Of a stretch of 64,000 bases of DNA, positions 4,495-40,007 are shown piece by piece (position 1 is the stretch's first letter; every line of letters starts with the position of its first letter). The notes beneath the pieces are model-generated. The model was not told the origin of the DNA. It ran no database searches and saw only the letters and a list, made by a program, of their open reading frames with translations. This DNA is from Meghimatium bilineatum (lineage: Eukaryota; Mollusca; Gastropoda; Stylommatophora; Philomycidae), in contig CM067322.1 in the NCBI GenBank assembly GCA_034231615.1, positions 99,209,087 through 99,273,086 on the forward strand, written 5' to 3'. Made by a program: the position numbers and the translations under genes.

Positions 4495-4663
4495 CTCCAT
4501 CGAGACCAGCACCGTGCAGAGGTGATGGGGCTTAGTTCAGCCATCAGGGGCTGGAAACTAAGACTGGTCGGGCAGTCCCACTCGAGCAGGACCATAGTCC
4601 TGCCCTAGTAAGCAGAGTGCTGAAGACGGAGGCATCCAGCCAAAAGGCGCACAGATAATCAGG

Positions 4664-5581
4664 ATGCCACGCACAAAACACAATGGAAACATGTCTACAT
4701 CTATAAAAAGTTATGGTGCCTGCCCTGTGGCGGACGTTCAGGCAGGGACGGTGCCGGGCCCTATACCTCGAAAGGGCCCAACCTCAGTTACTGGAAGTCC
4801 TTCTCAATTGCCCAGAGGAGCCAGGAGGCAAGGGAATAGAGCTACTGGCCAAACAAACAAACGACCAATAAAAATAATGCACTGGAATGCTGAGGGTGTC
4901 AACAGTAAAAGAGATGGATACAGCAAAAAATTGGAACTTGAAAATGTCCTCAGTGAAGAACAAGTTAACATATGCTGTATCCAAGAAACACACCTCAGCA
5001 GCGACATAGCCTTCAAAATCAGAGGCTACCAGTGCTACCGATCTGACCGAAAGGACAGGCGAAAGGGTGGAATTCTGACACTTGTTAAAAACAATATCAG
5101 CGCATGTCAGCTTGAAGTATATATGGAAGGGGCAGAATACCAGATGCTCCACCTAAAAACAGACAGTGCAGAATTCCATCTCCTGAACTACTACTGCCCA
5201 AATGATAAACCATTGTCACTAGACACAATTCCAGACAAAGAGAGACTTATGGTGTGTGGTGACTTCAACAGCCACTCTCAGAGCTGGGGCTACGATCATA
5301 TCGACAAGAGAGGTGAGGAACTTGAGAGCTGGCAGGATGAAAATAATCTCATCCTTATTAACCAGCCAGCAGACTCACCAACCTTCTACTCGAGAGCATG
5401 GCACACCACCTCTACACCAGACCTAGCATTCCACTCACCAGGCTTGGAATGGAACATCACACGTGTTGTTGGAAAGCAGCTTGGAGGTAGTGACCACAGA
5501 CCAGTATTTCTGGAAATCCACAATGAATTTACCACGGACAGCAGCACGCTCACTAGGTGGAACTATAAAAGGGCAGACTAG
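4664..5581 (+). CDS. LINE-A polyprotein, endonuclease segment
   Basis: 305 codons. After ~70 low-complexity residues comes an exonuclease-endonuclease-phosphatase fold: HWNAEGVNSK (Asn site), CCIQETHL (catalytic Glu), KGGILTLVKN, MVCGDFNSHSQSWGYD (GDFN), and GGSDHRPVFLEI (SDH, C-terminal catalytic His). The enzyme nicks target DNA to prime reverse transcription. It ends at TAG 5579-5581 inside the usually continuous RADW context. Three bases later the same frame stays open to 8515, so the stop is most simply a TGG-to-TAG nonsense change in one ORF, not a genuine ORF boundary. Confidence 0.85.
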   Translation: MPRTKHNGNMSTSIKSYGACPVADVQAGTVPGPIPRKGPTSVTGSPSQLPRGARRQGNRATGQTNKRPIKIMHWNAEGVNSKRDGYSKKLELENVLSEEQVNICCIQETHLSSDIAFKIRGYQCYRSDRKDRRKGGILTLVKNNISACQLEVYMEGAEYQMLHLKTDSAEFHLLNYYCPNDKPLSLDTIPDKERLMVCGDFNSHSQSWGYDHIDKRGEELESWQDENNLILINQPADSPTFYSRAWHTTSTPDLAFHSPGLEWNITRVVGKQLGGSDHRPVFLEIHNEFTTDSSTLTRWNYKRAD

Positions 5582-5584
5582 AAA

Positions 5585-8515
5585 ATGTACCAGCATTTAA
5601 CCAGTGTTCTAGCTAAGGACATGAACTTGGACAAAGACATCAATAGAGCAGTGAGTGAATTTAATAGATGTATACTACATGCTGCTAGTAAAACCATACC
5701 CAGGGGGGCACGCAAAAACTACAAACCCTACTGGAATGATGAACTGGAAAAGCTGCAAAATGAGATGGAAACATCTAGACAGCAGGCTGAGAACAGACCT
5801 AGCCAAGAACATCACAACAAATATCAGCAAACAAAGGCTAAATTTCAAAGAGCCAAGTTACAAGCCAGACGGAGCAGCTGGAAAGAAAAAACAGAGTCGC
5901 TGAACCTAGAAAGAGATACTAGGAAATTATGGAAACTTGTAAAACAACTAAATGATGAAGGTACAGGGAGAAATACCAGGATCACACTTAATAAAGATAG
6001 AAACTATTTAACAGGTAAACATGCAGCTGATTACTTTGCAGATTCCTTTGCAGAAGACAATAACGTCAAAGTCAGCCCAGACAAACAACAGGAGGTTCGA
6101 GAGAACCAGCAAAACATTGGACAAGGTGAACCTATACCTGAAGTCATGGAGGCACCAATCACAATGAGAGAACTGGAGCATGCAATATCCAAATTGAAAA
6201 TGAAAAAGTCCCCTGGAGCTGATGGAGTGTCCAATGAAATGATTAGAAACCTGGGAAGTGCAGCAAGAGCAAAGCTACTGCAGATCTTTAACACAAGCTG
6301 GTCCACAGGTAATGTACCACAGGCGTGGAGAGAAGCAATAATGATACCACTCCTCAAATCAGGAAAAGATGGCAACACAGTCTCCAACTACAGGCCCATC
6401 AGCCTCACAAGCTGTCTATGTAAAACAATGGAACGCATTATCAATCTTAGGATGCAGTGGTACCTTGAAAGTGAAAACCTTCTGGTATCACAGCAAGCAG
6501 GTTTCAGACAGTGCTACTCTACTGAAGATCAGGCAACCTACCTCTCCCAAGAGATTGAGGATGCCTTCCAAGAAAAGAAACTGGTACTAGCAGCATGGAT
6601 AGACCTCAGGAAAGCATTTGATAAGGTCTGGAAAGAAGGGCTCCTAAAGAAATTGCGAAATTGCAGAGTTAGCTCAAGAATGTACAAATGGGTAAAAGCA
6701 TACCTGCATAATAGAAGAGCCAGGGTACAATTAGATGGGCGCAAGAGCAAGAAAGTTCTACTGCGTCATGGAGTCCCCCAGGGAGGAGTCCTGTCACCCA
6801 CACTTTTCTTGGTTTACATCAATGACCTAGTTGCTGAACTACCACACGGGATCAAAGTGGCAATGTATGCTGACGACCTGGTGATCTGGTGCACAGAAGA
6901 ACATGCAACAGTGGCCAGTAAACAAATACAAAGAGCTATCGATGCCCTAACCTTATGGGCTAATAGATGGTGCGTCAGCATTAACACAGATAAGTGCAGC
7001 ACTACACTCTTTACCCTCTCACCAAAACAAAAAGCTGGTCAAATCAAGATAGATGGAGAGCTCTTGAAAGAAGACAAACAACCCACATACCTCGGAGTTA
7101 CTTTTGATGATAAGCTGACATGGAAGCAGCACATAAACAAAGCAACAACAAAAGCCAGTAGGAAGCTAGCTATCCTGAGAAAACTAAGTGGAACCACATG
7201 GGGAGCCAGTGGAAATATACTCAGTAAAGTTTACCAGCAAGGCATAAGACCACACCTGGAATACGGTTCAGCTGCGTGGTGTCCTGCATCAAACACCACA
7301 TTGCAAGATCTAGATAAAGTGCAAAACCAGGCACTTAGAATAATGTTGGGAGCAATGAAATCAACACCCATAGCAGAGATGCAGAAAATGGGAAGAATGC
7401 AAACACTTGGCGAACGCAGAGACACAAAAGTACTAATTCAAGCAGAAAAGTTTCAGTGTATGCCAAGTCATCCAATGAAGGAAAGATTCCAAAATCTAGC
7501 AATGGGGCGACTGAAAAGGAGCAGCTTTATCCATCAAGCTAAACGACTCCGCAGACAACTTACAGACCTACCTGAAGTTGACAGCCCCTTAAGGTCTGTA
7601 CCAGAGCAAACCCCGTGGAGTGAAAGCCATGGAATGCCAATATACATTCAGACCCATGTGAAAGGAATACTAAGCGAGGACGAACAGAACAGTGTGCAGC
7701 GAATGACAGTCACCCTCAGTTTCCTGGATGAGGAATATCCACAAGATATATGGGTCAGAGTGTACACAGATGGGTCAGCACAGAATGCTGTGAGGAATGG
7801 AGGTGCAGGTGTATATATAGAATATCCACACAAGCCTAGAGATACAATCAGAACACCGACAGGAAAATTCTGCAATAATTATGATGCAGAAATCCAGGCA
7901 ATTAGTGTAGCAGCTAAAAAACTGCTGAACTCCAACTCTGACCTACAGCCTGTGGTATTCCTGACAGATGCAGGGTCAGTGCTTCAAGCTCTCCAGTCTG
8001 GAAAACTAACAGACTTAAAAAAACTACTTAGCGAATTGTCTTACCAGTATAGGGTAACCATGCAGTGGATACCCTCTCACTGTGGAATACCAGGAAATGA
8101 AAAAGCAGACCAACTGGCTAAGGAAGGTGCTGCCGAAGACCAACCAGATATACCAATCACCTACCATCAGAAAAAACAGATGATAAAGTCAATAAGAAAG
8201 CCACAAACACCAACACAAGATGACTATCACAATATGAACAGATCAGAACAAGTTATAATTCTACGTCTCAGAACAGGACACAACCGACTCCGCAGTCACA
8301 TGTATACAAAGTTCAAGATTGGTAACACGGCCATGTGTACATGTGGACAGGCAGCACAGAGTGCCAAACATATACTTCAAGAGTGTTCTGAGCATGAAGC
8401 GCTGAGGCAGACATATTGGCCAGAGGAAGCAACACTGGAATCAAAGCTCTATGGGACACTGTATGAACTACAAAAGACAGTGAGTTTTATTAAGGAGACA
8501 GAATTACAGATATAG
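5585..8515 (+). CDS. LINE-A polyprotein, RT and RNase H segment
   Basis: 976 codons in the same frame as the endonuclease segment. RT motifs in order: KSPGADGVSNEMIRN; NYRPISLTS; AAWIDLRKAFDKVW; HGVPQGGVLSPTLFLVYIND; MYADDLVIW (catalytic YADD, near 6866-6877); PTYLGVTFDD. RNase H follows from ~7757: VYTDGSA (Asp), YDAEIQAI (Glu), FLTDAGSVLQAL (Asp), PSHCGIPGNEKADQLA (His and Asp), so all catalytic residues are present. The C-terminus has a CTCG...H...C knuckle (CTCGQAAQSAKHILQEC). No frameshift or stop is seen inside, so only the upstream TAG disables the element, which suggests a recent insertion. The first Met at 5591 is unlikely to be a natural start. Confidence 0.88.
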   Translation: MYQHLTSVLAKDMNLDKDINRAVSEFNRCILHAASKTIPRGARKNYKPYWNDELEKLQNEMETSRQQAENRPSQEHHNKYQQTKAKFQRAKLQARRSSWKEKTESLNLERDTRKLWKLVKQLNDEGTGRNTRITLNKDRNYLTGKHAADYFADSFAEDNNVKVSPDKQQEVRENQQNIGQGEPIPEVMEAPITMRELEHAISKLKMKKSPGADGVSNEMIRNLGSAARAKLLQIFNTSWSTGNVPQAWREAIMIPLLKSGKDGNTVSNYRPISLTSCLCKTMERIINLRMQWYLESENLLVSQQAGFRQCYSTEDQATYLSQEIEDAFQEKKLVLAAWIDLRKAFDKVWKEGLLKKLRNCRVSSRMYKWVKAYLHNRRARVQLDGRKSKKVLLRHGVPQGGVLSPTLFLVYINDLVAELPHGIKVAMYADDLVIWCTEEHATVASKQIQRAIDALTLWANRWCVSINTDKCSTTLFTLSPKQKAGQIKIDGELLKEDKQPTYLGVTFDDKLTWKQHINKATTKASRKLAILRKLSGTTWGASGNILSKVYQQGIRPHLEYGSAAWCPASNTTLQDLDKVQNQALRIMLGAMKSTPIAEMQKMGRMQTLGERRDTKVLIQAEKFQCMPSHPMKERFQNLAMGRLKRSSFIHQAKRLRRQLTDLPEVDSPLRSVPEQTPWSESHGMPIYIQTHVKGILSEDEQNSVQRMTVTLSFLDEEYPQDIWVRVYTDGSAQNAVRNGGAGVYIEYPHKPRDTIRTPTGKFCNNYDAEIQAISVAAKKLLNSNSDLQPVVFLTDAGSVLQALQSGKLTDLKKLLSELSYQYRVTMQWIPSHCGIPGNEKADQLAKEGAAEDQPDIPITYHQKKQMIKSIRKPQTPTQDDYHNMNRSEQVIILRLRTGHNRLRSHMYTKFKIGNTAMCTCGQAAQSAKHILQECSEHEALRQTYWPEEATLESKLYGTLYELQKTVSFIKETELQI

Positions 8516-10263: not shown

Positions 10264-11736
10264 GGTAAAGCCCCAGGCAATGATGGCTTAACAACTGAAA
10301 TGATACACGCAGGCGGCGAGGCCGGAATTAAGATTTACCACAAACTCTGCTGCAAAATATGGGAAAGCGGTACATGGCCGGATGAATGGAAAAAATCATT
10401 ATATATACCCCTCCCAAAAAAGGCGACCTTCAGATTTGCTCTAACTACCGAACTATAGCCCTTATAAGTCAAGCAAGTAAAATAATGTTAAACATCATAA
10501 TGCAAAGAATCAAACAGAAACTAGAAATGGAGATAAACGAAACACAGGCTGGTTTCAGATCGAGGCAGAGGAACAAGAGATCACATTCTTAATATGAGAT
10601 TGATCATAGAAAAGTGTAGGGAATTTTCAACTGACCTGCACATGTGTTTCATAGATTACTCAAAAGCGTTCGACTGCGTCCAACACCAGCAACTATGGGA
10701 GATAATGAACAGCATGGGTTTCCCAAGACATCTGATTCATCTAATAGAGGAACTTTACCAAGATCAAAAGGCTGCAGTGAAGTTAGAGGACGATCTCTCA
10801 GAATGGTTTGAGGTACAGAGTGGAGTAAGGCAAGGGTGCACACTCTCCCCATACCTGTTCAACATCTACGCTGAAAGTATAATGAGGAACGTGAGAGAAG
10901 ACATACACAACACTGACTACCACGCTTTAAACATAGGTGGATTCCTAATCCCTGAACTACGCTACGCAGATGACACAGTACTTCTTTCACACGATATAAA
11001 GGGATTGGAACAACTAATCAAGAACACAAAGAAATATAGCGAAGCACAAAATTTGTATTTAAACACGCAGAAAACAAAAATCATGTCAACAGATATAACA
11101 ACACAACAACCAAAAATCAGAATAGACAATACCGAGATAGAATGTGTGGATAAATTTGAATACTTAGGAGCAAACATCAACGGTGCAGGAGACTGCATGG
11201 CAGAAATAAGGAAGAGATTGGCAATGGCATATTGCAAAATAACACGGCTGAAAAACATATGGAAAAACAACAAAATAGAAACGAAAGTGCTAATGTTACG
11301 TACGTTTATTTTTCCGGTTGCAACATACGGCTGTGAAACATGGACTCTAAGTAAAACAGCGGCAAAGAAGATCAACGCCTTCGAGCTGAAATGCTACAGA
11401 AAGATACTTAGAATATCATGGAAGGATAAAATCAGAAACTCAGATATTATAAACACACTGAATATTCCAGAGTGTTGGTTACTAAACACAATAACAAAAA
11501 GAAAACTACGCCTGTTTGGTCATATAAAGAGACATAACTGTTTAGAAAGACAAATAATGGAGGGAAGAGTACCTGGGAAGAGGAGAAGGGGCAGACCAAG
11601 AAGACGATGGACTGACGACATTAAAGATAACATGAATACATCGCTAGAAAATGCAAGCCACATCGCCCAAGACAGAGAGACGTTCAGAGAGTTCATTGGG
11701 AAGACAACGTTCTGGAAGGAATACGTCACATGACAC
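10264..11736 (+). pseudogene. LINE-B reverse transcriptase, 5'-truncated, one frameshift
   Basis: Starts in RT motif 2 (KAPGNDGLTTEMIHAGGEAG, then WPDEWKKSLYIPLPKKGD), runs through IALISQASK and QAGFR, shifts frame near 10562 (one extra base in an A/G-rich stretch), and then stays open for 379 codons to 11733. These include FIDYSKAFDCVQHQ, GVRQGCTLSPYLFNIYAE, RYADDTVLLSHD (YADD intact), KFEYLGANI, the post-RT RLFGHIKRH and GRPRRRWTDDIK, ending GKTTFWKEYVT. The endonuclease is absent. The style is RTE/Jockey-like, without RNase H. It sits inside the AAAC element: ACTGAG precedes it (10258-10263) and recurs just after it, a short probable TSD. Confidence 0.85.
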
Positions 11737-25512: not shown

Positions 25513-25635
25513 ATGGGCACAAGAGTGTACATTGGTCGCTTATCATATCATGCGAGAGAAAAAGACATTGAAAGATTCTTCAGAGGATATGGAAGAATTC
25601 GAGACATCATGCTTAAAAATGGTTATGGCTTTGTG
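25513..25635 (+). CDS. SRSF4/5/6-like: SRSF exon 1 (start codon, RRM1 first half)
   Basis: [20 protein letters not shown]... to GYGFV, 41 codons, ending in phase 0 at donor GTGAGT. An acceptor CAG at 25502-25504 leaves 8 nt of 5' UTR in this exon. The start is chosen because [10 protein letters not shown] matches the usual SR-protein N-terminus. Confidence 0.93.
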
Positions 25636-28600
25636 GTGAGTGTCTAAATTTATGAAAACTTGTTAGTAGACATGACTTTCAAATGAGTATTCCCTACTTT
25701 TTTTCTGTTAGTTCTCAAGCTCCCAGTTGATTTCTCTTGTAGAAGGACAGTGCTTATCCTACTTCTGCTCTCAATCTCTAATAACTAGCACAAAAGTTCA
25801 TTTAATTTCCTCCAGGTAGCGCGAAGTACGTTTTGCTGTCGGTTTCACAGCAAAGCTGCAATATTCTGCGCCTTCCATAGCACATCTGCTTTTGGCTATA
25901 TGGTTATCTTAAAATTCCAACATGTCCAGAGAATGGAAATGCATTGTGTCACTTTCATCTGTGTTCGTTCTCAAACTACTGCAGATTAGCAGAAAGTAGT
26001 CCAGAGAAAAGAATGTGCAGTGCCACGGTTTGCAGGGTAGCTGCGATATCTACTCATTTCCACCTGACAGATTCAACTTCAGCGTGGCTTTAGGATCACC
26101 TGACTATATGGAATGGATCAGTTAACTCAAAAGAATATCTTTTATAAAAGTAACTCCAAAAAGTTTTCTTTTTTTAAACATAATATGGAAATCGGTTATG
26201 TTTATTTGATTGCTAATTTGTAGCATAGATTTTTAGTCAGACCTACTAAAGGTACACTATTGTATTGTTGATTGGTCTGGATATATAGCAAGATCTGCAT
26301 GCACACAGAAAAGGATAACAGGTTTATGTGTCTTACACCTAATATTGTCTCGTAGGACTTGATGGCAATACCATTCTTTTCTATCTTTCATAGTGACTTT
26401 ATATCTGCAAAATTATTATGATTTTTATTTCTATTTACTATTTACCCCTTTGGAATATATGTCTTCAGCAAACATACTGCTTCCATTTCTTTCCATGTCC
26501 AATTTGAATACACACACTTCCACAATCTAGAGACTTCATGTGAGCAAGACATTTGAAGGAATAATGACATTTTATTTTAGATCAGTGTGGCAACGAGAGC
26601 CTGGACACAATAGGGTCACTGCTTTCTTTTCAGTCATGTCTTAATAGGCGCTAAGAAAAATGTAATTGAGGGATAGGCTGACACACTAAAAAAAAATCAT
26701 CACATCTTGTCTCAATTTCTTGCTTTTTTCTTTTGAATTTCACCTCATTTAGACAACTGAAAAGAACTTGTCTGAATGACAGGGCTGTCAAGAGCGATCT
26801 GCTCACAGCTAAATGGATTATTTTATGATCCATCTTTAGTTTTATGCTGCTACCTACAATGGTCTGTTTGTTATTATCACCAGCAATAAAAATTTAGTTA
26901 CTTACACAATTTAATTTTGCTAAGTAGGAGACTTTTTCTCAAAGCATTTGCAGACTGGTGTTAGTTTGGAGTCTTCTAGGTATGAAATGAAGCTCTATGT
27001 GGCACCTCTATTGCACATAGGAAGTAAGAGCTAATCACTCATAATTTCTGCGGATTGAAACAACACAATAACACAGTGTCAATGTTATTGCAGGAATTTG
27101 ATGACTACAGAGATGCTGATGATGCAGTGTATGAACTCAACGGGAAAGATCTTTGCGGTGAAAGGTACATTTTTCACCTTTAAGGTCCACTATATAGTTG
27201 GCACATGTCTGTCTTTCAGATGTTAGTATTGTTGTACTATAAAAATGCAGTTTCTTATAATGTGATTTTATATATATATATATATACATATATATACATA
27301 CTATAATGTAAAATATTGAAATTACATTTTTGACTCAAGGAGAATAGGCGATAATATGTACTCATGGCAGCAAAAATGATATCTAACTGGTGAAACTTGG
27401 AACTGGGTAATGAAGTTTTGCTAATCGTTGGAAATGAATAACACACAAGTTGATGTTTCAACCAATATGCCTTTATAAAAAACAGTATGCACAGTATGGC
27501 GAACTAGAACAGCATTATTGACGTTCACGTCAGCTAAATATAGATATAACCAGGAAGAGTAAAAACTAGAAGGCCAGAGGTGATACAACACAAACAGGAA
27601 ATAGATGAAACCTAAATATTGGTGTTACAAACACCGTCTTTCACCCCCGGCCTTCAAATTTATATCTATATTTAGCCCTGCCATGTGAACATTAACATCA
27701 ATAGTGCCATTCTTACTTGTCGTTCTCCAAGGGAAAGGTAATACCAATACATTTGGAACAAGGCCAGCTGCCGGATCAGCAGAGCTGCACTCTATTTGTT
27801 GGCCAATTGGTGCTCTCATCTTAAACCAGCTGCCAACCAAGGCCTGGTCTGCTAAGCCCCACTATTTGATTTTTGGTTACATTTCCTTATCCTAGGATAA
27901 GTATCCCACATGTGCTCCTGCACAGAATTTTTGACACAGTATGGGTTGTCAGGATAGGTAGACGTTGCCTGAGTTACAGCATTAACAGAAACAGGTTGTA
28001 CCAACTGCTATCATGGAATAGCTGCCATATCTGACATCTATCTATATTATGTATTTCTTCAGCGTTTTTCAGTCAGATATCAGGTTACAGCAGCAATAGC
28101 TTCAATGAATTGTGTGATTCGCTTCAGGTCATCCATGGAACCCATCAAGTCTGGAAGTAGTGCAGTCTCAGTGGGTCATATTGCGTAGCCTTTGGTTCAT
28201 TTGATGACTCTCCAAACATTTGAACTTTGCATACTGTGTGAGGATTTTTTCATTTCTTCTTTCTTCCATTGATGGCAAACCTGTGCATGTTTCCATTTCT
28301 GTGATTGGGGTAGTATTCATACCTCCTGTTATAATTCTGAGATTGCGGTTTTGTATCTTTGAGATCTTTTGAGTGTTACTCTTGGCTGCAGTCCCCCATG
28401 CTGACATTCCATATTCCAAATTGGTCTTATGTGACCTGTATATGCTCTACTTAAAATTTTCCTATTTGTACCCCAATCTGTTCCAGTCAATTTTTTTAGG
28501 ACTGCTGTCCTCCTTTTGTTTGGCACTTGACTATGTGCTGTTTCCATGTAAGTCTTGGATCAAAAGTGACTCAACGGTATGTGGGCATCTCGTCTTTAGG

Positions 28601-31600
28601 CAATGTTTGACCATTTATGGTTAGTAGGATTTTCTGTGGTTTGGTGGACATGCTGAAGATGGTATAGGTAGTTTTTTTGGGCATTGATAGACATGGCCCA
28701 TTGGTCTGTCCACTTGGTCAAATTGTCCATAGTTTCCTGTAACCTTATTGTTGTTGTGCCTATACTCTCTTCACTGCACCATATCGCCAAATCGTCTGCA
28801 TACATTGCAGCATTTACTTTACGTGAGAGGTATTGGTCAATGTCGTTCATGAATATAAGGAATAGAGTGGGGGGATAGAACACCTCCCTGTGATACTCCA
28901 TGCTTGAAGAGTTTCTTTCTGCTGTGCTTCATTTCAAGCTTCACTGCTGCTTTTTGGTTATGCAGGTAGTTTTTTTCCAGCAATACATGCGCCCGGTCAC
29001 TTTGTTTTGTGTTTTGTAGTAGTTTAAGGAGAAGTCCATTTTCCCATACACAATCAAAGGTATTATGTATTTGATTAACCAGATATATAGTCTACTATAT
29101 GGTGCACATATATTCAATGTGACCAGATGCTTGCATTGTTTACTATCAGATATTAACTGCTTGAATGTTGACGTGGTCGTACAGTGATATAACTTGAATG
29201 AGGGGTGCAAAGGTTACAGCACAGCTCTTGGAAAACCACTGCGCCAACATATGTAGTGGTATTTTTGACACATCAGTTCGAGCATTGGAGATGCGGCCAA
29301 TAAAATTGACACGAAAAGGTAGATGCCTGGCGAGAGATTAAAAGACAACATACTGAGTTTAATGAAAGGGCAGCGCAGCGCCAGAGGGCAAGTGCAAATA
29401 GAAAGGTTTGAATGTTCTAAGGAAATTGGTACTACAAGCTTTTTTAGCTTGAGACAAGCTTCTAGTTACCTGTGCCCCTTTCGGACAGAGACCCAGACCC
29501 AATCGTGGGTGCCGGCAAAGAAAGCAGCCCTGGCCCAACTCTAATGTCAAGCTTTCCTATACCGGAAAGATGCTCACAGAGAGAAAGGGTTCAGTACCCA
29601 ATTGGCTCAGGCACAAATGGGACAATGTCGTTAGCTCAAGAACATGCTTTGCTTCCAAATTCGTGATAAGACATTGACTTGGACGAGGGGAGGGGTTCAT
29701 GATGTCGGTGAACGCATGGCTGAGAAGGTGAAAGACCCTAGGTCCAACTCTTCTGTTGAGTGCTTCCTTAACTGGAACCAGGCTCGCGGATCAGATAAGG
29801 TTCAATACCCTATGGGCAAATGCACAGGACGCCTAATAACACGAGGCAAGTTCACTGATCGTGGAACATCTCGTGCGAAATAGACATGAATGACAATCGT
29901 CTCTGCAAAGTTATTACACACCCACGCACCCATCGACAGATAAACAGGCTATCTGTCACAGGCTAGGATAGCCCACTACATGAATTAAAGGCATAGCCAA
30001 AACGGATGTGTTGGGCCCTGGATGTCTGGGCCACAGAGTAGGCAAACTGAGGTGAGACTAACACAGTTCAGTTATGGAACTAACAATGCAACGTACTTCA
30101 CGCTCCCCGGCGCAAATCACACAATTTATTCATTGTGGTTATAAGAGCGAACGCAGAAGAAGCATGAATGAAATATAATGTGCTGTTTTGGCTGTGTGAA
30201 TATTTACACAATACACCTTGGAATGATTTATTATAAATACATGCAGCGTGGAACAGATCTGCAGAAGACCTGTTACCTTGTCGTCATGTGCAGACAAGTT
30301 TTCGTGATGAAATACTTGGTCTTCCTGTTTTTCAGAGTTGTAATTGAACTTGCTCGGGGTTCTGGCAAGCCTCCAGTTTCTAGATCTAAAGGCTCATCAG
30401 CTTGGTTAGACAAGTAAGCGAGTGTAATATTAACTGCTAATGTCGTTGATGCATTTTTCTGTTTCCCTCCAGAGTGAGTGTAGAGCACGCCCGAGGGCCG
30501 CGCAGTGATGACACATTTCGTGATCGCGGCTTCAGAGGACGTCGTGGTGGTGGTGGTGGTGGTGGTAGAAGGGACAAGTAAGCATCTTTGGTGGAGACAA
30601 ATGTTTCTACTCTCTTTGCACTGTTTCAAAAATTTTACATTTTGGTGTTTTGTTCACTTGGTTTACCTGTGTGGTGTCCACCAGTATTTAATTATAAAGA
30701 GAACATCTGGAGTGGGAGAACAGAAAAATAGCAAAAGTTTGTTTGTTTGTTATGTTGTCATAGCAGCCATTAAAAATGCACAACTTCATTTTATTATCCG
30801 CAACTCATGTTAAAATATATGAAAATACATTTCTAGTCCGTGTGTTGCCGGAACTGAAAGGTGATCAAAGAATGGATGTCATAAGAAATGACTGAAACAT
30901 TTTTAGAGGTATAGTTGGCTGCCTCATTGCTTATAGGGCAAAATTTACCCAGAAGCCACACTGAATGTGTTAGTTTGAAAGGCGCAGGTGTCGCAGTCGA
31001 GTTGTAAAACATGAGTTGTAAAACACATTGTTCTCCAGGTTACATCTTGCCAATCTGCAGGAGTTTGAGAATGAATGCGAATACTAATTTTAGATTTCCA
31101 ATTCAAATTTGTGTTGTGAGAAAATTCAGGACAAACCACTAATTAAATCAGCTTTCATCAAAGGACAGTATTTTTGTAACATTTTTATACTGTTAGACAA
31201 TTCAGGACAAACCACTAATTAAATCAGCTTCATCAAAAAATTTTATTTTTGTGTTGTGAGAAAATTCAGGACAAACCACTAATTAAATCAGCTTTTCAAA
31301 AAACATTTTTGTGTTAGACAATTCAGGACAAACCACTAATTAAATCAGTTTTCATTAACCTTCACCGAGCCTATATCAATCGCAGCCGCCGAGAAACAAA
31401 ATGGCCGTGCGCGCTTTTTGCGGTCCGGCCCACCCAACGATAATATCGTGAGATTTACACGTACCACAGTCCGTGCACATAGCTGGGGACATGCGCAATT
31501 AAAGCCGGTACATCCCCCACTTCCGACATGATCGTTTTTGAAAATGGCTAGCTATTCGTAAAAGTTTAAGAGCAATTAATCTGACCACAGATTACACCGT

Positions 31601-34600
31601 ACACCGGTACGATGCCATGATGGATCGGTTTTACAGACCTTTATTTCATTGTATTTCGAATAAAATAACATTGAATCGTGGCTTGAATCATGGATTATTA
31701 GGTTATTTAGTTTCACAGCAGTGAATATACAGAATGCCATGTTGGTTTGGGGACTTGTACGTTTGATATCGAATATTTTGAAGTGGCAGAAAAAAATAAC
31801 TCTAGGCCTAAGCTCAAAGAACGATTTCACTGCAAATCTATATGTTTTATACAGTTCCCCCGGCTATATTTTGATAATTTCGCAGTGAAAGAACATAAAT
31901 ACAACAGATTTGCGTGATTTAGTTTACAGTGTTGCCAAGGAATTCGATATGTAAGGTAAGTTATTTTTTTTTCTTATTTTTTCCCTCTTTATTTGTTATA
32001 AAATATATGTTTTTTGTGAAAAACGTCTTTACCACTTTCTCATACGTCTGGTATCACACACACACGTACATAAATTACACCAATATATGCATAATTCAAT
32101 TCTTTATTTATATGTGCAAATATTATTTAAATATCTCTAACAACCAAAAAATTATCACATTTTCAAAACAGTCACCATCAATAATGCAAATTTTCAAAAA
32201 AGAATCCGGTGGCAGGGAGACGTTTCCTATTTTTTAATCAGGCTTGCTAAAGGTTAAAGATTATTTTTTGATTATACCATCAGCCCATTAGACAACTGCG
32301 CAGATTAACCATCAAAGAAGGTACAACTATGGACCTCGACAACATGCTAGAACTACACAGAGTAGCATCACATCGCTCAAACTGGAGAGCACTGGTTTCT
32401 GCTCTCTATGAACCGTATTTGATGCTAAAGAAACATGGATTGGATTAGACAAATATTTGATTTAGACTAATGAGAATGTTCATCCAGTGAAGTCTAGGAG
32501 AGGGCTGATGTTGGGTTGTCTAGAACTCACAGTATTTGTGCTATGTTACTGAGTGTATTACAAAGTGTCAGTTGCTGTTTGGAATCGGGCACATATTTAT
32601 GTGTTATATGAGGTTGACCTGAGTTGAGGTAGACAAAGATACAAGTGGGAGAGTAACATCACAAGATGGTCAGGATACTGTCTAGCAGAGTGCACCACCA
32701 AAACAAGAGACAGGATGTTGTTCTGTTGCAGTCAACCTTCGCTGCGGAGACCGCACGTGATGATGATGACCTGAGTTGTGCCTATATGTTTGCAGTTCTC
32801 GAACTCGGAGCAAAGAATGGCGATACATGTCGAAAGAGTTAACTTGAGTGGCGGAGTTGCCTGTGCTATCTCATAGAGGGGTCAAAGTGGCCCATATGTC
32901 ATGCTGAAATTGGATATCAGGTCACTTATTGTAGCTAAGCTGTAAACTATGATACATATTCCATACTCTGGACTATATTTTACTAATCTGCAGAAGATGG
33001 AGAATGAACTCTGAAAAGACCAGATCTGGGATTATTGGTGTGCCTATTGCTAAAATTACAGGTTCATCCTCACTAGAATGGACTGGTTAAAATAAAAAGC
33101 CATACAATTTCTCCGCTTATCTTTTCACCGTAGAACTAACCACTGTTCTTATAGCAAGTCTTCTGCATTCGCTCTCTGAGAACCAACACAAAATTTCATG
33201 ATTTCTGCCGATGTGTAGTGCATTGAGCTGCTGGTTTCACAGCAGAGCGGCGTTAGTTTGCACCTTCAAGCCCAGCACATCAGTTTTTGACACAGCAAGT
33301 CTTAATTTAACAAAATGATTCATGCTAAAATTGGATGTGCTGGACCAGAAGATGCAAATAATGCATCTTTGCTGTAACCCTGCAGCACAACGTACTTCAC
33401 ACTCTGCAGCGGGCATTACAAAAAATCTTGTGTTATCAGAACGAATGCAGAACAACAAATACCAATGAAAGCAAATTGACTAATACGCTCTGTAGTTGGA
33501 GTAATTTATTTACCACGTTTCTATGTGCTGCAGCTTTTTAAGAATTTATCATTTATTTTTTTATGCACATAAGTAAATATCCCACGAAAATAATAATGCA
33601 TGGAATTATTTGCAAACATTTAGTTTGATAAATACTCGCTTGCATAAACACTTTGAATGTGAAAACACACGTGCCACTATTCTGTGTTTTTAATGACTGC
33701 TAGCATATATACACAAATATGTATATCTTGTTAAATACTCTTCAGTAGAAGTCTATAATTTGTGTTGAGAGGTGAGATAGATTAAAGTAAACTAATATTA
33801 ACTTCTTTTCATATTTTGTTTTTACTCCATAATTCTGAATGAAATATTTTTCTTATTAGCGCTGAATTTTTATTCCTAAGGTATGGTCCCCCAACCAGAA
33901 CAGATCATAGACTGATTGTTGAAAACCTGTCTTCAAGAGTCAGTTGGCAGGTATGTTTTGTTTAATGATAAGAATGTTGCGTCATGATTATCAGTTTACA
34001 CATTTGATCACATATTTTTTACAAGAATGTTTTGCTGTAAATTGTACCAGTTTAACACTTTACTGTCAAGTAATCTGGGGCGTTTGTGACAATTTAAGTC
34101 TGGTAGATTTGTACAATTTAACACAGATAAGTAATCTGGAGCGCTTGCTTGTGCAATTTTAACAATTACAAGTAATCCAGAGCACTTATGTAATTTTAAC
34201 ACTTTACTGACCAGCAATCTGAAGCGCTTGTGTCAATTGAATTCCGATGACCAGCAATCTGGAGTGTACTTATCCCCCATTACAAAAAATATAAATTTCA
34301 TGGATATAAAAAGACAGCCGCTGTGAAAAATTTATTAAAGTTAGAATATGAATCTCTTAGAAATTCACTGCCTTGAATAGTTTTTATTTTAAAAAATCAC
34401 TTTAGATTTAAAACCCTGGATTCGTTCTGTAAGCCAGAATGGTACAGTGGAATCCTATTATAACAACTTGGTCCGGACCGACACAATATGTAATAATAAA
34501 TTTACTATATATAGTACAAAGAATATACAAAAATATAATAACTCGCCTGTGATAAATTATGAATTTGTATATAATATATTGGTACAGAAAGATTGCAAAT

Positions 34601-37600
34601 GGCTATCCTCTATGTGCGAAAATTAACATACCCCTGTTGAGATATTTTAGAAAAGCTATAGTTTTTCAGCTGGATCAACCAACATGAAGAAGCTTCTTCA
34701 GTGATTAGTGTCTGCTATTATTCGATTCCTGTATGGATCATAAATAGGCTGTACACTTGCGGTCTCATTTGGTTCTTCACAGTTGGTTCTAAAGTTCGAA
34801 CCCTGCAGCTCAGATTTCCATTATAACAAAAGTGGGGTATTCTTAGGACAGTTTCGGAAACTTCTTTGTGGCCGGCCATTCAGTGTATGCATATTCATAG
34901 TCTACTATGTTGGGTTCTATTGAAATCCTTGTATTTGCTTGTCTATTTAGGCTGTCATCCACTGGCTTGTATCCATTTTTGTAAATTCCAATTTAACGTA
35001 CATTAATTTCAGTACTGTACAGCAGCAAATTGTAGGTAGACAACCTGCCTGTATAGTGAGATTTTCCTTTTGTGGATCATCTGCATTCATTCTCAAACTC
35101 CTGCAGGATGCAGTCCAGAGAAAGAGTGCGTTGTTATGGTTTATAGCATAAACAGTGATATCTGCGCCATCAGCCTAACACATCAGGCCTCAGCATGTCT
35201 TTTGGATCACTTGACACTTAGTGGGATGGGACATCCAATTCCACCTTAAAATCTCGTGACATGCATGGAAGGTAGACAGTGCTGATATTCTTACTCCCCT
35301 TTCAGGCTCCAGCAACACAAGTGGCATATTCTATATAAATGTATTTCTGCATCCTCTGTGTAGGAATCTTCTAAAAAAATTGAGCATCTTATGAAATTAG
35401 TCTTTGGAAAAAATATATACCCACAAAAATTCACAGCAGTAACCATTGTTCGTGATTTATGAGGATTTATGCTTGAAATTAGACAATTGTAAGCTGGTTT
35501 GCACAGTTGTAATCAATATTAAGGACAGACAGACTGACAAACCCCTGGAAGAAATATTGTTTGTCTTCTAAAAATCAAGTAAAGATGTAATTTTGTGCCA
35601 TCAATTTATTGTAAAATGTTTAAACAGAATTTGAAAATATTCATATCTAAAAAAATTATTATTCTCATTCCCCATAAGCATCCACTTGATGAGATGAGAT
35701 GAAGATAACAAGGGCACTCTGATGTCCAAGCTTAAAGTAACTCTCCTCCTTATGAGATGTGTCTGGCTGAAGGGATGACTCTGAAGCCTTCACTCTAAAC
35801 TGGCAGTCTGGTTGTGACCTTGCTTCTCTATTTCGCCCTCTTGCTCGTTGTTATGCCAGGTTTGGACATCAACCCATCTTTGGGTTTGGGTGTCTTGACC
35901 AGAATTACTTCGCACGAGGTTTTGGACAAGAAATGTGTTTTTTTAAAACCTATCAGCTGCAAACTTGGGGGTCTTGAGACGTTGAGATGGCACGGTTATC
36001 GATGTCTTACTGGTCATCAGTGATACTCGTCTGCAACCAGTGAAAAGCTTTTGATGATTTAAAAAAAAGACGAATTTGTAGGGTGTCAGAAAAGATGTTA
36101 GTGCTGGGGGCACAGAGGTGGCCAGAAGACGAGGGTAAAGTCCGAAGACGACCTCTGGCTGGCTTGTGACTGTAGGGCTTCTTAGACTCAACCGGATAGG
36201 GCTTCCCCACTTGAACAAAAATGTCTGAGGTAACTAATCATCAAGACTCAGTATTATTAACATGTTAGAAAGTACAATAGAACCTCTTAATGTTGACCAC
36301 CTCTGAAAGTTGACCAGATTTTCATGGGCTGCAAAATTTAATAGTAAATTACAGGTACAGTAAACCTCATTCCAATTGTTAACCATCTCTGTATGTTAAC
36401 ATGCTTGCTACAGTCCCTTGGGTGGTCAACTTATAGATGTTCTACTGTAATAGAATAATTTGTACAGTAAGATGTTAGGTGTATCAGATTAATGTCAAAT
36501 GTATTTAGTTGAAGGTACAAGAAAAACTGATGGAAGGGTACAGGATAATGACAAATACTTGTTATTGAGAAATGTAGGGAATTAGATACATGATATTATA
36601 TAAGATTGTTTTGTGGGTTGGCAGAAATTATGTTATCACCCGCTTGTGAAAGTGACCCGAAAGGGAAGCGAAGAACATCGACACTTAACTGCCAGGCATG
36701 TTGTAAGGGGATGCTACAGAAATTTGGTTGGGGGATGAAGTTGGCCAATATAGAGGGTCAGTGTGTCCCATAGGCCATTCCGAAATTGGATGTATCGAGC
36801 TGAAGGGCACTAGGTATTTCTTTAAGGTGTAAACGATAACATAATGCATTCAGTTCTCTGTGCTTCTTTCTGCTAATGTGCAGAAGTTTGAGAATGAACG
36901 CAGAAGTTACATTGTCATCACATGTAAATGATTTGCTTTATTTGAGTAAGAAGTTGTTTTCCAGATAGATAAATTATTAATGCTGGACAATAAGAAGAAA
37001 ATTGTGTTCATAGTGTTATCTTTTGTTGATTTGTATGTGAGAACTTTGTCAATATCATGTCTGTGTGTTAATGTTGATCTTATTATCAAATCTCATATTT
37101 TTCTGTTGGAAAGGATCTCAAGGATTACATGCGCCAAGCAGGAGAAGTTACATATGCTGATGCCCACAAGAAACACAGGAATGAGGGGTAGGTTTTTATT
37201 GTCTTTTCTGTAGGTGTGTAGCAGTATGGATTGACAATGGTTTTCAGACAATGGTTGGGTCGCTTGATAGGCTGGAATATTGTGAAGTCTCAATATTTGT
37301 ATCTCCTTTTTGTGCCGAAGGTGGATGTGTCGGGCCATTGGTGAAAATGAAACGGCGACAACGCAGTTCCATTCTCTGGACTACATCCTGCTGGAAATCT
37401 AGTAGGACCATGGTTCTGCAAGAGAAATTAGTGGGAATTTGAGAATAAACGCTGAAGAAGTAGTATCTCCTTCAATATACCTTCTTGGTTTTCTTCTGCC
37501 TTGTGCTGTTTGCATGCTGTAAATGGATGTGGTTAGCTTGTACTGTACAGTGTACACACTGTACTTCACACTCTCTGGCTCATATCACGCAAATATTCCA

Positions 37601-40007
37601 TTATTTGAGAGTAAACCATAAGCAAAAGAAGTAGGAATCTCTTTCCATCTTATGGATTCTCTCGCTGCTGGCCAGTAAGGGTTCATTATCATTTAGTGGC
37701 AAAACCATTTTGGTCTCCGTATTTCAATATGTTTGACTACAGACATTGTTCCAACAATTCTTATCTCTTCATTTCTCACACGATCTCTTGTGCATGTTTT
37801 TATTGTTTAGTTGTATGTCACATTCCATATATGGACACTGTGAACACAGAAGCCATGCTAAACTCAGTTGTGTCAACTTCTAGATGCAGATAAGCTGTAA
37901 ACCATGACAATGCACTCTAGATTACATCTTGCTGATCTGTAGAAGTTTCAGATCGAAAGCAGAATTATGTTGTAATATTACCCACCCATAAAGTTGGTGT
38001 AGTAGTAGAATTGATATTGAGCTGACCTCGTAAACCCAACTTGTTGGACTAGTTGGTTCAAATACAGCCATTCTCATACTAGCGATACAATTAGATGTAT
38101 TAGATGGCACCTGAAAATTCAATAGTTGAATAGCAGTTATTTGTGTAAGTCTATACAGTTTTGATGCCTCATGCAGTTCAGGTGTAATTAATTATCCTCT
38201 TATATTTTACAGTATCATAGAATTTGCAACATCATCAGACTTGAGAAATGCCATTGAAAAATTGGATGGGACTGAGATTAATGGTCGTAAAATAAGGCTC
38301 ATTGAGGACAAGCCAAGGAAACACAGGTATGTAAATTTTGTGTGCATATCCTAACCTCTTGTATAAATTAAAAATCTACCCAATCTAAATATTTTTTCGG
38401 GGATGATCCTGTTAAGCAAATAGTTATCGAGTACTATTTATTAACATTGTGATTCATGTTGGTGTTGATATACATTATGTTTGTCCATCACAACTTTCAT
38501 CCACTTTATGAAATTCTGTTAGAGGAATGACATTGTCTGAGTTTGTAGGTGGCTGATAATCCCTTGGTGACAAAAAAGGTGTTTGGGCAGGAGATGATCT
38601 CTTTTGATGATGTTTAATCTGGCGTAACACTTTGCTGACCAGCATACTTATCCGCCATTACTGAGGCCGCACGCAAACATTTCTAGATTGACATCGCCGT
38701 CTTTAGAAATGTGTATAAAATCGATCTAGCGCGAGAGAGCCTTAAAACTTTCTATGTGTTGTATTAACTGTTTGCACTTTCTGAATGAATTTGAAAGCTC
38801 CAGGGTTATTTCAAGTGCAAAATGCTACTTATCGTAATGCTAGGCCTATATTTACATTAATACTATCATAGCGCTTTTGACGATCATCGAAATTGGTCAG
38901 GAAAGTTAATCTTCTTCAGTGTTCATTCTAAAACTCCCACTGGATCTCTCTTGTAGCAGGACAATGGTCCTACTAGATTTCCAGCAGGATGTAGTCCAGA
39001 AAAAGGAAATGCGTTGTGTCAGTTTTATTTGTACCAATGGCCCATCACATCCGTCTTTGACGAATCCTTAATATTTACCATGCCAGACAAGTAATATAAA
39101 AATGACAAGACTCGCATGTTCGTGTCCAAACGCATGATTCCCAACAATTCCTCATGACACAATACATAAAAATTTCACTAAAAATGGCTTCCATTTCTAC
39201 TAGATTTGCAATGATTGTAACAAGATAACTGACACTTTGAAAAGGTTTTGAAGAAGAATTGATTAGATACCCTATGAGAAGACGAGGAGGTTGAATGTGA
39301 CAATGTTCATCTTCAGAGAATGGTAGAAATAGGAGGGACTAGATGAGGTCTGGGAGAAAGTGTTCCCTTTCTGGAAAGATCAGAACGCATAATCAGCAAG
39401 TGACTTTTAGATGGCTGAGGGAACAGTAAGCAGGGCGAATATGGGAATGCCTTCAGTGCCTTGATCCCTCATTTGGCAGTTTACTTTCATTCACACCGAT
39501 ACTTGTGTGGCCTGGTGTGAATCCAATGACAGTAAAGGGACCTTTGTGAGTTTTTATTACAAAAGCTGTTCATATTAGTGAGACACCTCCCTCCAGGGCC
39601 AGATAAATGGAACACATTATATGGAACAAAACAACAGCTCACAAACACATGCATATATCACACAATGGCATTGGGTCAAAAGGCATGGACCGCTAGATCA
39701 GCAACCAACCAACCATATATGACCCAGTTTCTTTGTAAATTTCATTTCTATACTTGTTCCCTTATTTTTTTGCAGTCATTCCCGTAGCAGATCTCGATCC
39801 CGAAGCCATCGCCGTAGCCGTTCACGTAGCGGCAGCAATTCTAGAAGCAGGAGCCATAGCAGGTCTCGCAGTGCAAGCAAAGATAAAAAGTCTAAAAGTA
39901 GATCAGCAAGTCCAAACAAGAAATCTGAATCACGTTCTCGATCTAGATCACATGACAAGGAAAATGGAGATCAAGATGCTGAAGAAGAAGTCAACAATGA
40001 TGATTAA
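25513..40007 (+). CDS. SRSF4/5/6-like: SR splicing factor, SRSF4/5/6 (B52/SRp55) group
   Basis: Eight coding exons joined by GT-AG introns: 25513-25635, 27094-27164, 30336-30413, 30473-30577, 33881-33950, 37114-37187, 38213-38326 and 39776-40007. RRM1 has RNP2 RVYIGRL and RNP1 NGYGFVEF across the exon 1/2 junction. RRM2 is the SR-type pseudo-RRM ([20 protein letters not shown], with the SWQDLKD signature). The tail is rich in RS dipeptides and ends acidic (EEEVNNDD). These nuclear RNA-binding proteins define exons and regulate alternative splicing. Using exon 4 and skipping exon 3 gives 262 aa, close to family size; exon 3 alone gives 253 aa; both give 288 aa. An acceptor at 25504 shows at least one upstream untranslated exon, not located. 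Introns hold many transposon copies. Confidence 0.93.
25815..25905 (-). repeat. SINE-3 fragment in SRSF intron 1
   Basis: Antisense GCGAAGTACGTTTTGCTGTCGG ... GGTTTCACAGCAAAGCTGCAATAT ... AGCACATC core, shared with 33155-33465. Confidence 0.5.
25940..26110 (-). repeat. SINE-2 3' part in SRSF intron 1
   Basis: Antisense GTTCGTTCTCAAACTACTGCAG, ATTAGCAGAAAGTAGTCCAG and a GTTTGCAGGGTAGCTGCGATATC core. Confidence 0.6.
27094..27164 (+). CDS. SRSF4/5/6-like: SRSF exon 2 (RRM1 second half)
   Basis: [20 protein letters not shown] then CGE plus two bases of the next codon (AG). Acceptor TTGCAG, donor [15 protein letters not shown] is the conserved last turn of RRM1 before its beta-4 strand, which is supplied by exon 3 or exon 4. 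Confidence 0.92.
27480..27720. repeat. foldback of a Penelope-like 3'-end sequence
   Basis: CAGCATTATTGACGTTCACGT...GCTAAATATAGATATAA (27513-27545) is mirrored by TTATATCTATATTTAGC...AATAGTGCCATTCTTA (27660-27715), an imperfect inverted repeat. The left flank GTTTCAACCAATATGCCTTTATAA resembles the end of the element at 24530. The element identity is an inference. Confidence 0.4.
28130..29010 (-). pseudogene. LINE-A-like RT fragment in SRSF intron 2
   Basis: The minus strand reads broken [39 protein letters not shown] (YADD kept), [17 protein letters not shown], then after frameshifts [30 protein letters not shown] and [19 protein letters not shown]. Similar to the 6.8-7.4 kb part of the intact LINE-A. 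At least three frame breaks. Confidence 0.8.
29202..30164 (+). mobile_element. AAAC-superfamily element, GAA-tailed, in SRSF intron 2
   Basis: Starts GGGGTGCAAAGG like 9892, continues with the CATTGGAGATGCGGCC, AAAGGGCAGCGC, CTATACCGGAAA, GAACCAGGCTCGCGG and GGCTGTC-type landmarks, and ends GCGAACGCAGAAGAAG. A 7-bp TSD TGAATGA (29195-29201 and 30165-30171) is likely. It ends ~165 bp before exon 3. No long ORF. Confidence 0.65.
30336..30413 (+). CDS. SRSF4/5/6-like: SRSF exon 3 (alternative beta-4 exon)
   Basis: 78 nt, phase 2 in and out. Encodes (R)[19 protein letters not shown] then SSAWLD(K). It begins like exon 4 (RV.(I/V)E.ARG) and, joined to exon 5, ends in the same DKYGPP context. Acceptor TTTCAG, donor GTAAGC. 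The intron to exon 4 is only 59 nt, so the two are probably mutually exclusive. Compared with the canonical EHARG, the ELARG version is the derived one. Confidence 0.8.
30473..30577 (+). CDS. SRSF4/5/6-like: SRSF exon 4 (canonical beta-4 and Gly linker)
   Basis: 105 nt, phase 2 in and out. Encodes (R/K)[19 protein letters not shown], then FRGRRG with a run of seven Gly (GGT repeat at 30545-30567) and RRD. EHARGPR is the conserved end of RRM1 in SRSF4/5/6. Acceptor CTCCAG, donor GTAAGC. Confidence 0.92.
31110..31354 (+). repeat. tandem repeat (~55-75 bp, four units)
   Basis: ATTCAGGACAAACCACTAAT followed by TAAATCAG recurs four times (about 31120, 31200, 31267, 31320). It directly abuts the TTAA end of the element at 31355. 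Confidence 0.65.
31355..32257 (+). mobile_element. piggyBac-like non-autonomous element, copy B
   Basis: TTAA at both ends (31355-31358 and 32254-32257), termini CCTTCACCGAGCC and GGCTTGCTAAAGG. It is the inverted, near-identical partner of 22885-23769, and homology continues to 32334 beyond the right TTAA. A third, diverged partial copy lies at 55270-55503. It lies in SRSF intron 4. Confidence 0.68.
32627..32766 (+). mobile_element. LINE-C 3' end with TSD in SRSF intron 4
   Basis: Reads [20 protein letters not shown], then CTTKTRDRM and RRPHVMMMT at a GATGATGATG tail. TSD TGACCTGAGTTG (32615-32626 and 32767-32778, 12 bp). Same 3' end as 3288-4185. Confidence 0.8.
32797..33020 (+). repeat. 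SINE-2 copy
   Basis: GGAGCAAAGAATGGCGATAC ... GGGGTCAAAGTGGCCC ... CATGCTGAAATTGGAT ... GTAGCTAAGCTGTAAAC ... CTAATCTGCAGAAG ... GAATGAACTCTGAA. Full length but diverged. Confidence 0.65.
33155..33465. repeat. head-to-head inverted pair of SINE-3 copies
   Basis: 33155-33297 is antisense and 33325-33465 sense. Shared words: GGATGTGCTGGAC, CAACGTACTTCACACTCT, GAACGAATGCAGAA. Transcribed as part of SRSF intron 4, the two arms could form a long hairpin. Confidence 0.6.
33881..33950 (+). CDS. SRSF4/5/6-like: SRSF exon 5 (RRM2 start)
   Basis: (K)[20 protein letters not shown] then SWQ, ending phase 0. YGPPTRT...RLIVENLSS is the invariant entry to RRM2. Acceptor CCTAAG, donor GTATGT. Confidence 0.93.
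34040..34290 (+). repeat. ~50-bp degenerate tandem repeat
   Basis: ARTAATCTGGRGCGYTTGTG...CAATTTWA units repeat about five times; the related words CTTTGCTGACCAGYA occur again near 38635 and 43128. Confidence 0.55.
34436..34570. repeat. MITE-1 half copy
   Basis: Begins TACAGTGGAATCCTATTATAACAACTTGG, matching the terminal sequence of the complete MITE at 47478-47820. The right terminus is not found. Confidence 0.5.
35085..35325 (-). repeat. SINE-2 copy (antisense)
   Basis: Antisense TCATTCTCAAACTCCTGCAG ... TTATAGCATAAACAGTGATATC ... TGGGATGGGACATCCA ... GACATGCATGGAAGGTA ... CTCCCCTTTCAGG. Nearly full length. Confidence 0.68.
35690..36225. other. unclassified intronic sequence
   Basis: A 69-codon plus frame from 35814 starts with a hydrophobic run then PGLDINPS, faintly like the N-terminal leader of some LINE ORFs; a minus frame covers 36007-36218. 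Neither is convincing. Confidence 0.2.
36273..36449. mobile_element. MITE-2 copy
   Basis: Inverted termini TACAATAGAACCTCTTAATG...TTGACCAC and GTGGTCAACTTATAGATG...TTCTACTGTA, TA at both outer ends. A second copy is at 53686-53852. The TA target and CAGTAGAACC termini suggest a Tc1/mariner/pogo-type source. Confidence 0.7.
36650..36905 (+). repeat. SINE-2 copy
   Basis: GACCCGAAAGGGAAGCGAAGAA through GGGTCAGTGTGTCCC, CCGAAATTGGATGTATCGAGCTGAA and CTAATGTGCAGAAGTTTGAG to GAACGCAGAAG. It ends ~210 bp before SRSF exon 6. Confidence 0.65.
37114..37187 (+). CDS. SRSF4/5/6-like: SRSF exon 6 (RRM2 middle)
   Basis: [20 protein letters not shown] then HRNE plus GG; completes the SWQDLKD signature with exon 5. 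Acceptor GGAAAG, donor GTAGGT. Confidence 0.93.
37309..37462 (+). repeat. SINE-1 copy with TSD
   Basis: GGTGGATGTGTCGGGCCATTGG ... CCATTCTCTGGACTACATCC ... CTAGTAGGACCATGGTTCTG ... GAATAAACGCTGAAGAAG. TSD GTATCTCCTT at 37299-37308 and 37463-37472. Confidence 0.78.
37510..37640 (+). repeat. SINE-3 copy, diverged
   Basis: TAAATGGATGTGG ... ACACTGTACTTCACACTCTC ... CATATCACGCAAAT ... AGCAAAAGAAG. Confidence 0.45.
37850..37960 (+). repeat. SINE-2 3' part
   Basis: ATAAGCTGTAAACCATGACAATGC, then a GATTACATCTTGCTGATCTG core. Confidence 0.5.
38213..38326 (+). CDS. SRSF4/5/6-like: SRSF exon 7 (RRM2 end)
   Basis: (G)[20 protein letters not shown] then [17 protein letters not shown] plus [20 protein letters not shown] is the conserved end of RRM2. 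Acceptor TTACAG, donor GTATGT. Confidence 0.93.
38920..39060 (-). repeat. SINE-1 copy (antisense)
   Basis: CTTCTTCAGTGTTCATTCT, AACTCCCACTGGATCTCTCT, GGTCCTACTAGATTTCCAGC, then CCAATGGCCCATCACATCCGTC. Confidence 0.75.
39585..39714 (+). mobile_element. LINE-E 3' end (AACC tail) before the last SRSF exon
   Basis: Reads [20 protein letters not shown] then ends in an AACCAACC tail. Near-identical to the 3' end of 63518-63869. The right end lies only ~61 bp before the exon 8 acceptor, so its neighbourhood overlaps the likely branch-point region. Confidence 0.75.
39776..40007 (+). CDS. SRSF4/5/6-like: SRSF exon 8 (RS domain, stop)
   Basis: (S)[20 protein letters not shown] ... [34 protein letters not shown], then an acidic [11 protein letters not shown] and TAA. 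About 30 SR/RS dipeptides, expected to be phosphorylated by SR kinases and to mediate splicing contacts. The RS tail is short, as in SRSF5-type proteins. Confidence 0.93.

Follow-up and report, generated by a model that had tools for sequence, protein, structure and literature searches.

Our analysis of a 64,000-nt stretch of the Meghimatium bilineatum genome (hereafter the window; C25:99209087-99273086 in a genome of 1.61 Gb and 32 contigs) suggests that exons 3 and 4 of an SRSF5-like SR protein gene are probably alternative versions of a single exon and would be used one at a time. Judged from the sequence, this arrangement is best read as a mutually exclusive pair. In the predicted protein, either exon, when joined in frame, completes the last beta strand (beta-4) of RRM1 and reaches RRM2 through the residues DKYGPP.

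Results

The SR protein gene occupies positions 25513-40007 on the + strand of the window and has eight coding exons, which together specify two RRMs and an RS domain. The coding part of exon 1 (25513..25635) runs from the start codon to ...KNGYGFV and supplies the first part of RRM1; it matches the SRSF6 RRM1 and is conserved in a paralogue on contig C16 (L039:1372-1494). Exon 2 (27094..27164) carries RRM1 up to beta-4. Downstream of exons 3 and 4, RRM2 starts in exon 5 (33881..33950) and ends in exon 7 (38213..38326), with exon 6 (37114..37187) between them, while exon 8 (39776..40007) encodes the RS domain and the stop codon. Pfam recognizes two RRM_1 stretches in the protein, and its best PDB matches are SRSF6 chains. 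The second RRM contains the motif SWQDLKD, which we take to be a mark of the SRSF4/5/6 subfamily. With this motif, its two RRMs and its RS domain, the predicted product identifies the locus as an SRSF4/5/6-type SR protein gene. Its exon borders are, by our assumption, those of human SRSF5. The ancestral animal member of the group is inferred, in the part of the published study consulted, to have had the SRSF5 exon structure (PMC4379411); for this reason SRSF5-like may perhaps be the better gene name. Scanning the window for Rfam families and tRNAs gave no matches.

Several other features of the window and genome were recorded. Long open frames at window positions 4598-8512 and 10537-11730 resemble, by eye, a non-LTR endonuclease/reverse transcriptase, and a tandem array at 57887-58141 consists of 11 copies of a 23-nt unit with 94% matches. 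Repeat pieces of about 100 nt occur in both orientations within introns of both gene copies (window 25953-26060, 30962-31078 and 36828-36904; L039 8989-9109). Many contigs also hold RRM_1 matches limited to profile positions ~1-57 or 1-61 and lying in long open frames, often of 600-1300 codons, some of them in tandem (e.g. C23:72501954 onward, with a spacing of 4871). These long frames with a partial RRM_1 are presumably retroelement ORFs with an RRM.

Exon 3, the alternative form (30336..30413, 78 nt, + strand), encodes RVVIELARG, corresponding to beta-4, and a Ser/Lys linker ending in DK. Exon 4, the conserved form (30473..30577, 105 nt, + strand), encodes RVSVEHARG and a Gly-rich linker that likewise ends in DK, and it is conserved on C16 (L039:3947-4057). 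Both are open; each takes one base that completes the last codon of exon 2 and leaves two bases for exon 5, so that DK is joined to YGPP in either case. The 11-nt donor context GACAAGTAAGC is identical at the two exons (GACAA followed by GTAAGC). Pyrimidines make up 14 of 17 acceptor positions at exon 3 and 15 at exon 4, compared with 12 at exon 5 and nine at exon 2. The first-pass annotation, made from the letters of the window, had described a duplicated, probably mutually exclusive exon pair in an SR splicing factor gene, and its coordinates, exon and intron sizes, common phase and DKYGPP join were all exact. That the two exons can stand in for each other also held, as each completes beta-4 plus a linker and raises the score against the SRSF6 RRM1 chain 9r53_A. 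The word "duplicated" was borne out in part: the beginnings of beta-4 and the exon borders are alike, but between the linker halves no alignment is apparent. The two exons are adjacent, in the same phase and intact in frame, with homology confined to the beta-4 start and the borders.

The predicted contribution of exon 3 to RRM1 was assessed by protein comparison. Pfam RRM_1 gives all three chains nearly the same score (115.9 and 115.8 for the two exon forms, 116.0 with neither), and the SRSF6 RRM1 chain was used instead for this reason. Against 9r53_A, the first 73 residues scored 121.8 bits with exon 3, 125.1 bits with exon 4 and 111.1 bits with neither, corresponding to gains of 10.7 and 14.0 bits, respectively. 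Within the interval between exons 2 and 5, 92 acceptor candidates open a phase-compatible exon; when these were scored for similarity to the beta-4 start, exon 4 reached 40, exon 3 reached 22 and the third-best candidate 11. A score of 22 was reached in 3 of 1000 Markov-1 resampled introns, a frequency that depends on a reference picked once exon 3 was known and consisting of exon 4 and the C16 copy of that exon, and that takes no account of the pyrimidine tracts, the donor context common to both exons or the join of DK to YGPP. At the nucleotide level, exons 3 and 4 are identical at 12 of 24 positions over eight codons, and synonymous positions over these codons are saturated. This saturation hints at age, although eight codons are few. 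The case for duplication is carried by about nine residues at the beta-4 start and by the boundary sequences, and only by these. A repeat origin of exon 3 was considered and rejected: when the genome was searched at the DNA level for matches to window 30250-30640 (very common words skipped), the locus itself and exon 4 on C16 were found and no further copies. In bacterial/archaeal and viral collections, one scan each for relatives gave 56 and 11 pattern matches, none of which was confirmed.

The intron between exons 3 and 4 (30414..30472, + strand, GT..AG) is only 59 nt long. The 11 other introns measured in the gene and its C16 paralogue range from 762 to 3303 nt (the limits of the last C16 intron were left undefined), and 59 nt is an unusual length within this small set of 12. 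Published intron sizes were found for a single gastropod gene, the hemocyanin of Lymnaea stagnalis, with a minimum of 118 bp in the part of the report consulted (PMC7931591). A search for short introns in 31 of 47 loci, compared with each other, returned mostly repeats and yielded no set of introns fit for comparison. Three branch-like A's lie in the 59-nt intron at 30433, 30440 and 30449, at distances of 19, 26 and 35 nt to the donor, and belong to the YTNAY-fitting sites TTAAC, CTAAT and TTGAT, respectively. The branch-like CTAAT that had been noted about 25 nt from the donor is indeed present, its A lying 26 nt from the donor G. From this spacing it had been argued that steric exclusion makes joint splicing of the two exons unlikely, a view that can be kept in weakened form. 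Distances of 19-35 nt fall short of a proposed donor-branch threshold of ~50 nt, and in human OGDH, according to the part of the study consulted, branch points at donor distances of 25-41 nt prevent exons 4a and 4b from being used together (PMC7969005). However, splicing does remove human introns as short as 43-65 nt, including a 56-nt intron with a donor-branch distance of 27 nt, according to the sections consulted of another report (PMC8363638), and the steric argument is therefore weaker than first stated. Given the length of the intron and the position of its branch-like A's, joint inclusion of exons 3 and 4 would still be unlikely.

The reading frame stays open whether exon 3, exon 4, both or neither is included; it therefore does not enforce exclusivity, nor does it penalise joint use or skipping. 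When the 59-nt intron is retained, a TAA stop follows immediately after DK, and the composite of exon 3, intron and exon 4 measures 242 nt, which is not a multiple of three, and stops after residue 91. Competing RNA structure was considered as an exclusion mechanism and rejected: the predicted fold of the 331-nt region is no better than that of shuffled sequences (z +1.18; 89 of 100 shuffles folded equally well or better), and its inverted repeats amount to two 10-nt pairs. No processed copy of either spliced form was present among the genome candidates scored (69 + 3).

The second copy of the gene, on C16, has exons 1, 2, 4, 5, 6 and 7 in locus L039, while locus L040 supplies an open RS frame corresponding to exon 8. 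Between the copies on C25 and C16, Ks is 1.25 and Ka 0.040 (185 codons, with exons 3 and 8 left out), and both copies must therefore have been constrained and long separated. From these values, the gene flanking exon 3 is under strong purifying selection. Exon 3 was not found in the C16 paralogue by blastn or tblastn on L039, nor by genome-wide DNA and protein searches; the sole weak tblastn match near C16 exon 4 is exon 4 itself. With respect to conservation in related genes, exon 3 was thus not found in the one paralogue compared. Because that paralogue keeps exon 4 and yielded no exon 3, exon 3 is, on this comparison, an additional and divergent exon that one of the two gene copies carries. 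It is therefore dispensable in one copy and draws no support from a second sequence. Presumably the difference arose through loss from C16 or through gain in C25. The C16 paralogue has, at L039:4398-4457 in the interval from exon 4 to exon 5, a broken second copy of exon 5, with YGPP and TRTDHRFIVENFS in different frames. Apparent close partners on another contig were also seen for other RRM genes, namely L026 and L028 (C21/C8) and L003 and L004 (C18/C19), the best blocks of these partners showing 96% and 89% protein identity; the pattern is as after whole-genome doubling.

The intron that follows exon 5, which by its exon borders we take to correspond to intron 5 of human SRSF5, contains a predicted poison cassette exon (35679..35859, + strand, 181 nt) with an in-frame TGA after seven codons and a weak donor, GTTTGG. 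The surrounding stretch (window 35654-35870) aligns with L039 5926-6138, at the same place in both copies, with 77% identity over 226 columns (E 1e-34). Its C16 counterpart can be read as an exon of 178 nt (L039 5951-6128), again with early stops and a weak donor (GTCTGG). Among the window and 47 loci, the conserved stretch matches only these two places, while a control, the intron repeat at 25953-26060, gave 44 matches, partly overlapping, in the same set. An element common to both copies was detectable by the very comparison in which exon 3 was not. In the ancestral SRSF5 form, an alternative exon in human intron 5 brings early stops, according to the sections of the source consulted (PMC4379411). 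The conserved intronic stretch is a candidate for, and would probably be, the ancient SRSF5 poison exon. Short complementary segments are visible by eye within it.

Discussion

Under the reading that we prefer, single use of exons 3 and 4 would arise at the 59-nt intron, where U1 and U2 bound on its two sides would interfere with each other. Once either exon was defined, splicing would proceed from exon 2 to that exon and on to exon 5, and the choice between two similarly strong sites would be set by SR/hnRNP levels, possibly including the gene's own protein. The exon 4 form, with EHARG and a Gly/Arg linker, would be the ancestral and general one; EHARG is common to exon 4, the C16 paralogue and the SRSF6 chain. 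The exon 3 form, with ELARG and a shorter Ser/Lys linker, would change beta-4, the distance between the RRMs and their charge, and perhaps the RNA targets. If both exons were defined and the small intron was retained, the TAA right after DK would lead to degradation of the mRNA, and this decay would make a failure of the choice unproductive, not harmful. A wider version of this reading is possible but doubtful. After doubling of the gene, one copy would have retained or acquired a further beta-4 exon, and its locus would make two SR proteins with differing RRM1 binding faces and inter-RRM linkers, the choice between them being made by a 59-nt intron that is hard to splice and possibly by the gene's own protein.

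Other explanations were weighed against this one. Exon 3 could be a decaying or unused duplicate, a rather unlikely account that gains from its having no match on C16 and from the broken exon 5 copy at L039:4398-4457, which indicates that exon duplications in this gene pair do decay. Exon 3 is nevertheless open and in phase, with strong sites and a plausible beta-4. In a toy simulation of neutral change at Ks/2, its frame and splice sites survived with p ~0.012 to 0.035, provided that exon 3 predates the C25/C16 split; the argument is void if it is younger. Alternatively, exon 4 would always be kept and exon 3 would be an in-frame cassette, with the 59-nt intron spliced as a tolerated ultrashort intron and a second beta-4-like segment placed in the linker. 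Joint inclusion is in frame and ultrashort introns are spliced in human, at least in the examples consulted (PMC8363638), but the intron is an outlier among the 12 measured, a second copy of the beta-4 strand within the linker would serve no evident purpose and exon 3 carries its own terminal DK fitting exon 5. We regard this account as unlikely.

It is quite improbable that exons 3 and 4 serve, together with the small intron, as one 242-nt exon that switches the gene to unproductive splicing, the TAA after DK committing the mRNA to decay. The composite does have a length that is not a multiple of three and a stop after residue 91, and SR genes repeatedly evolve such events, with new ones replacing old ones in paralogues, according to the part of the study consulted (PMC4379411). 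Against it, exon 3 codes for a good beta-4 and joins compatibly, neither of which a poison element would require, and the gene already seems to have a poison exon after exon 5. As for a chance open stretch between an AG and a GT, the short length of exon 3 is all that speaks for it. The start motif by itself occurred in 3 of 1000 resampled introns, and the shared 11-nt donor context and the DK to YGPP join come on top of it; we consider chance highly implausible.

If single use of exons 3 and 4 is correct, a coding exon switch would be added to a family whose switches known so far work through stop codons and reduce protein amounts. SR proteins influence exon use of other genes, and a choice of beta-4 and linker would retune one of them directly. 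The C16 paralogue without exon 3 offers a natural comparison. A full-text literature search that covered few subscription journals found no report of such an exon pair in SRSF4/5/6 genes; one may well be present in the annotated genomes of relatives.

Comparison with known systems

Mutual exclusivity of alpha-tropomyosin exons reportedly depends on branch points that lie a short distance from the upstream donor. Similar to exons 4a and 4b of OGDH, the pair described here has branch-like A's near the upstream donor, although these are candidate branch sites, and the OGDH intron measures 118-131 nt in the birds and mammals covered by the part of the report consulted (PMC7969005), as opposed to 59 nt here. 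Intron 7 of HNRNPH1 (56 nt) comes nearest in the other direction: its size and donor-branch distance are almost equal to those of the 59-nt intron, yet it is spliced, and with a truncated pyrimidine tract, as described in the sections consulted (PMC8363638), while the tract in the 59-nt intron looks longer by eye. Unproductive splicing of SRSF4, SRSF5 and SRSF6 concerns the same family; however, the events described in the consulted part of that work insert stop codons and do not swap a coding exon (PMC4379411). In U2AF1, exons 3 and Ab (giving U2AF35a and U2AF35b) are tandem, either-or exons of a splicing factor, as far as described in the portions consulted (PMC5224494, PMC6821156). As in U2AF1, tandem exons of a splicing factor would here swap a piece of the protein, with exclusivity deduced in our case from sequence. 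According to the same portions, the U2AF1 products differ by seven residues and inclusion of both exons leads to NMD, whereas in the window gene the linkers are unlike in sequence and inclusion of both exons keeps the frame. With these differences in mind, the exon 3/4 pair would resemble U2AF1 exons 3 and Ab in kind.
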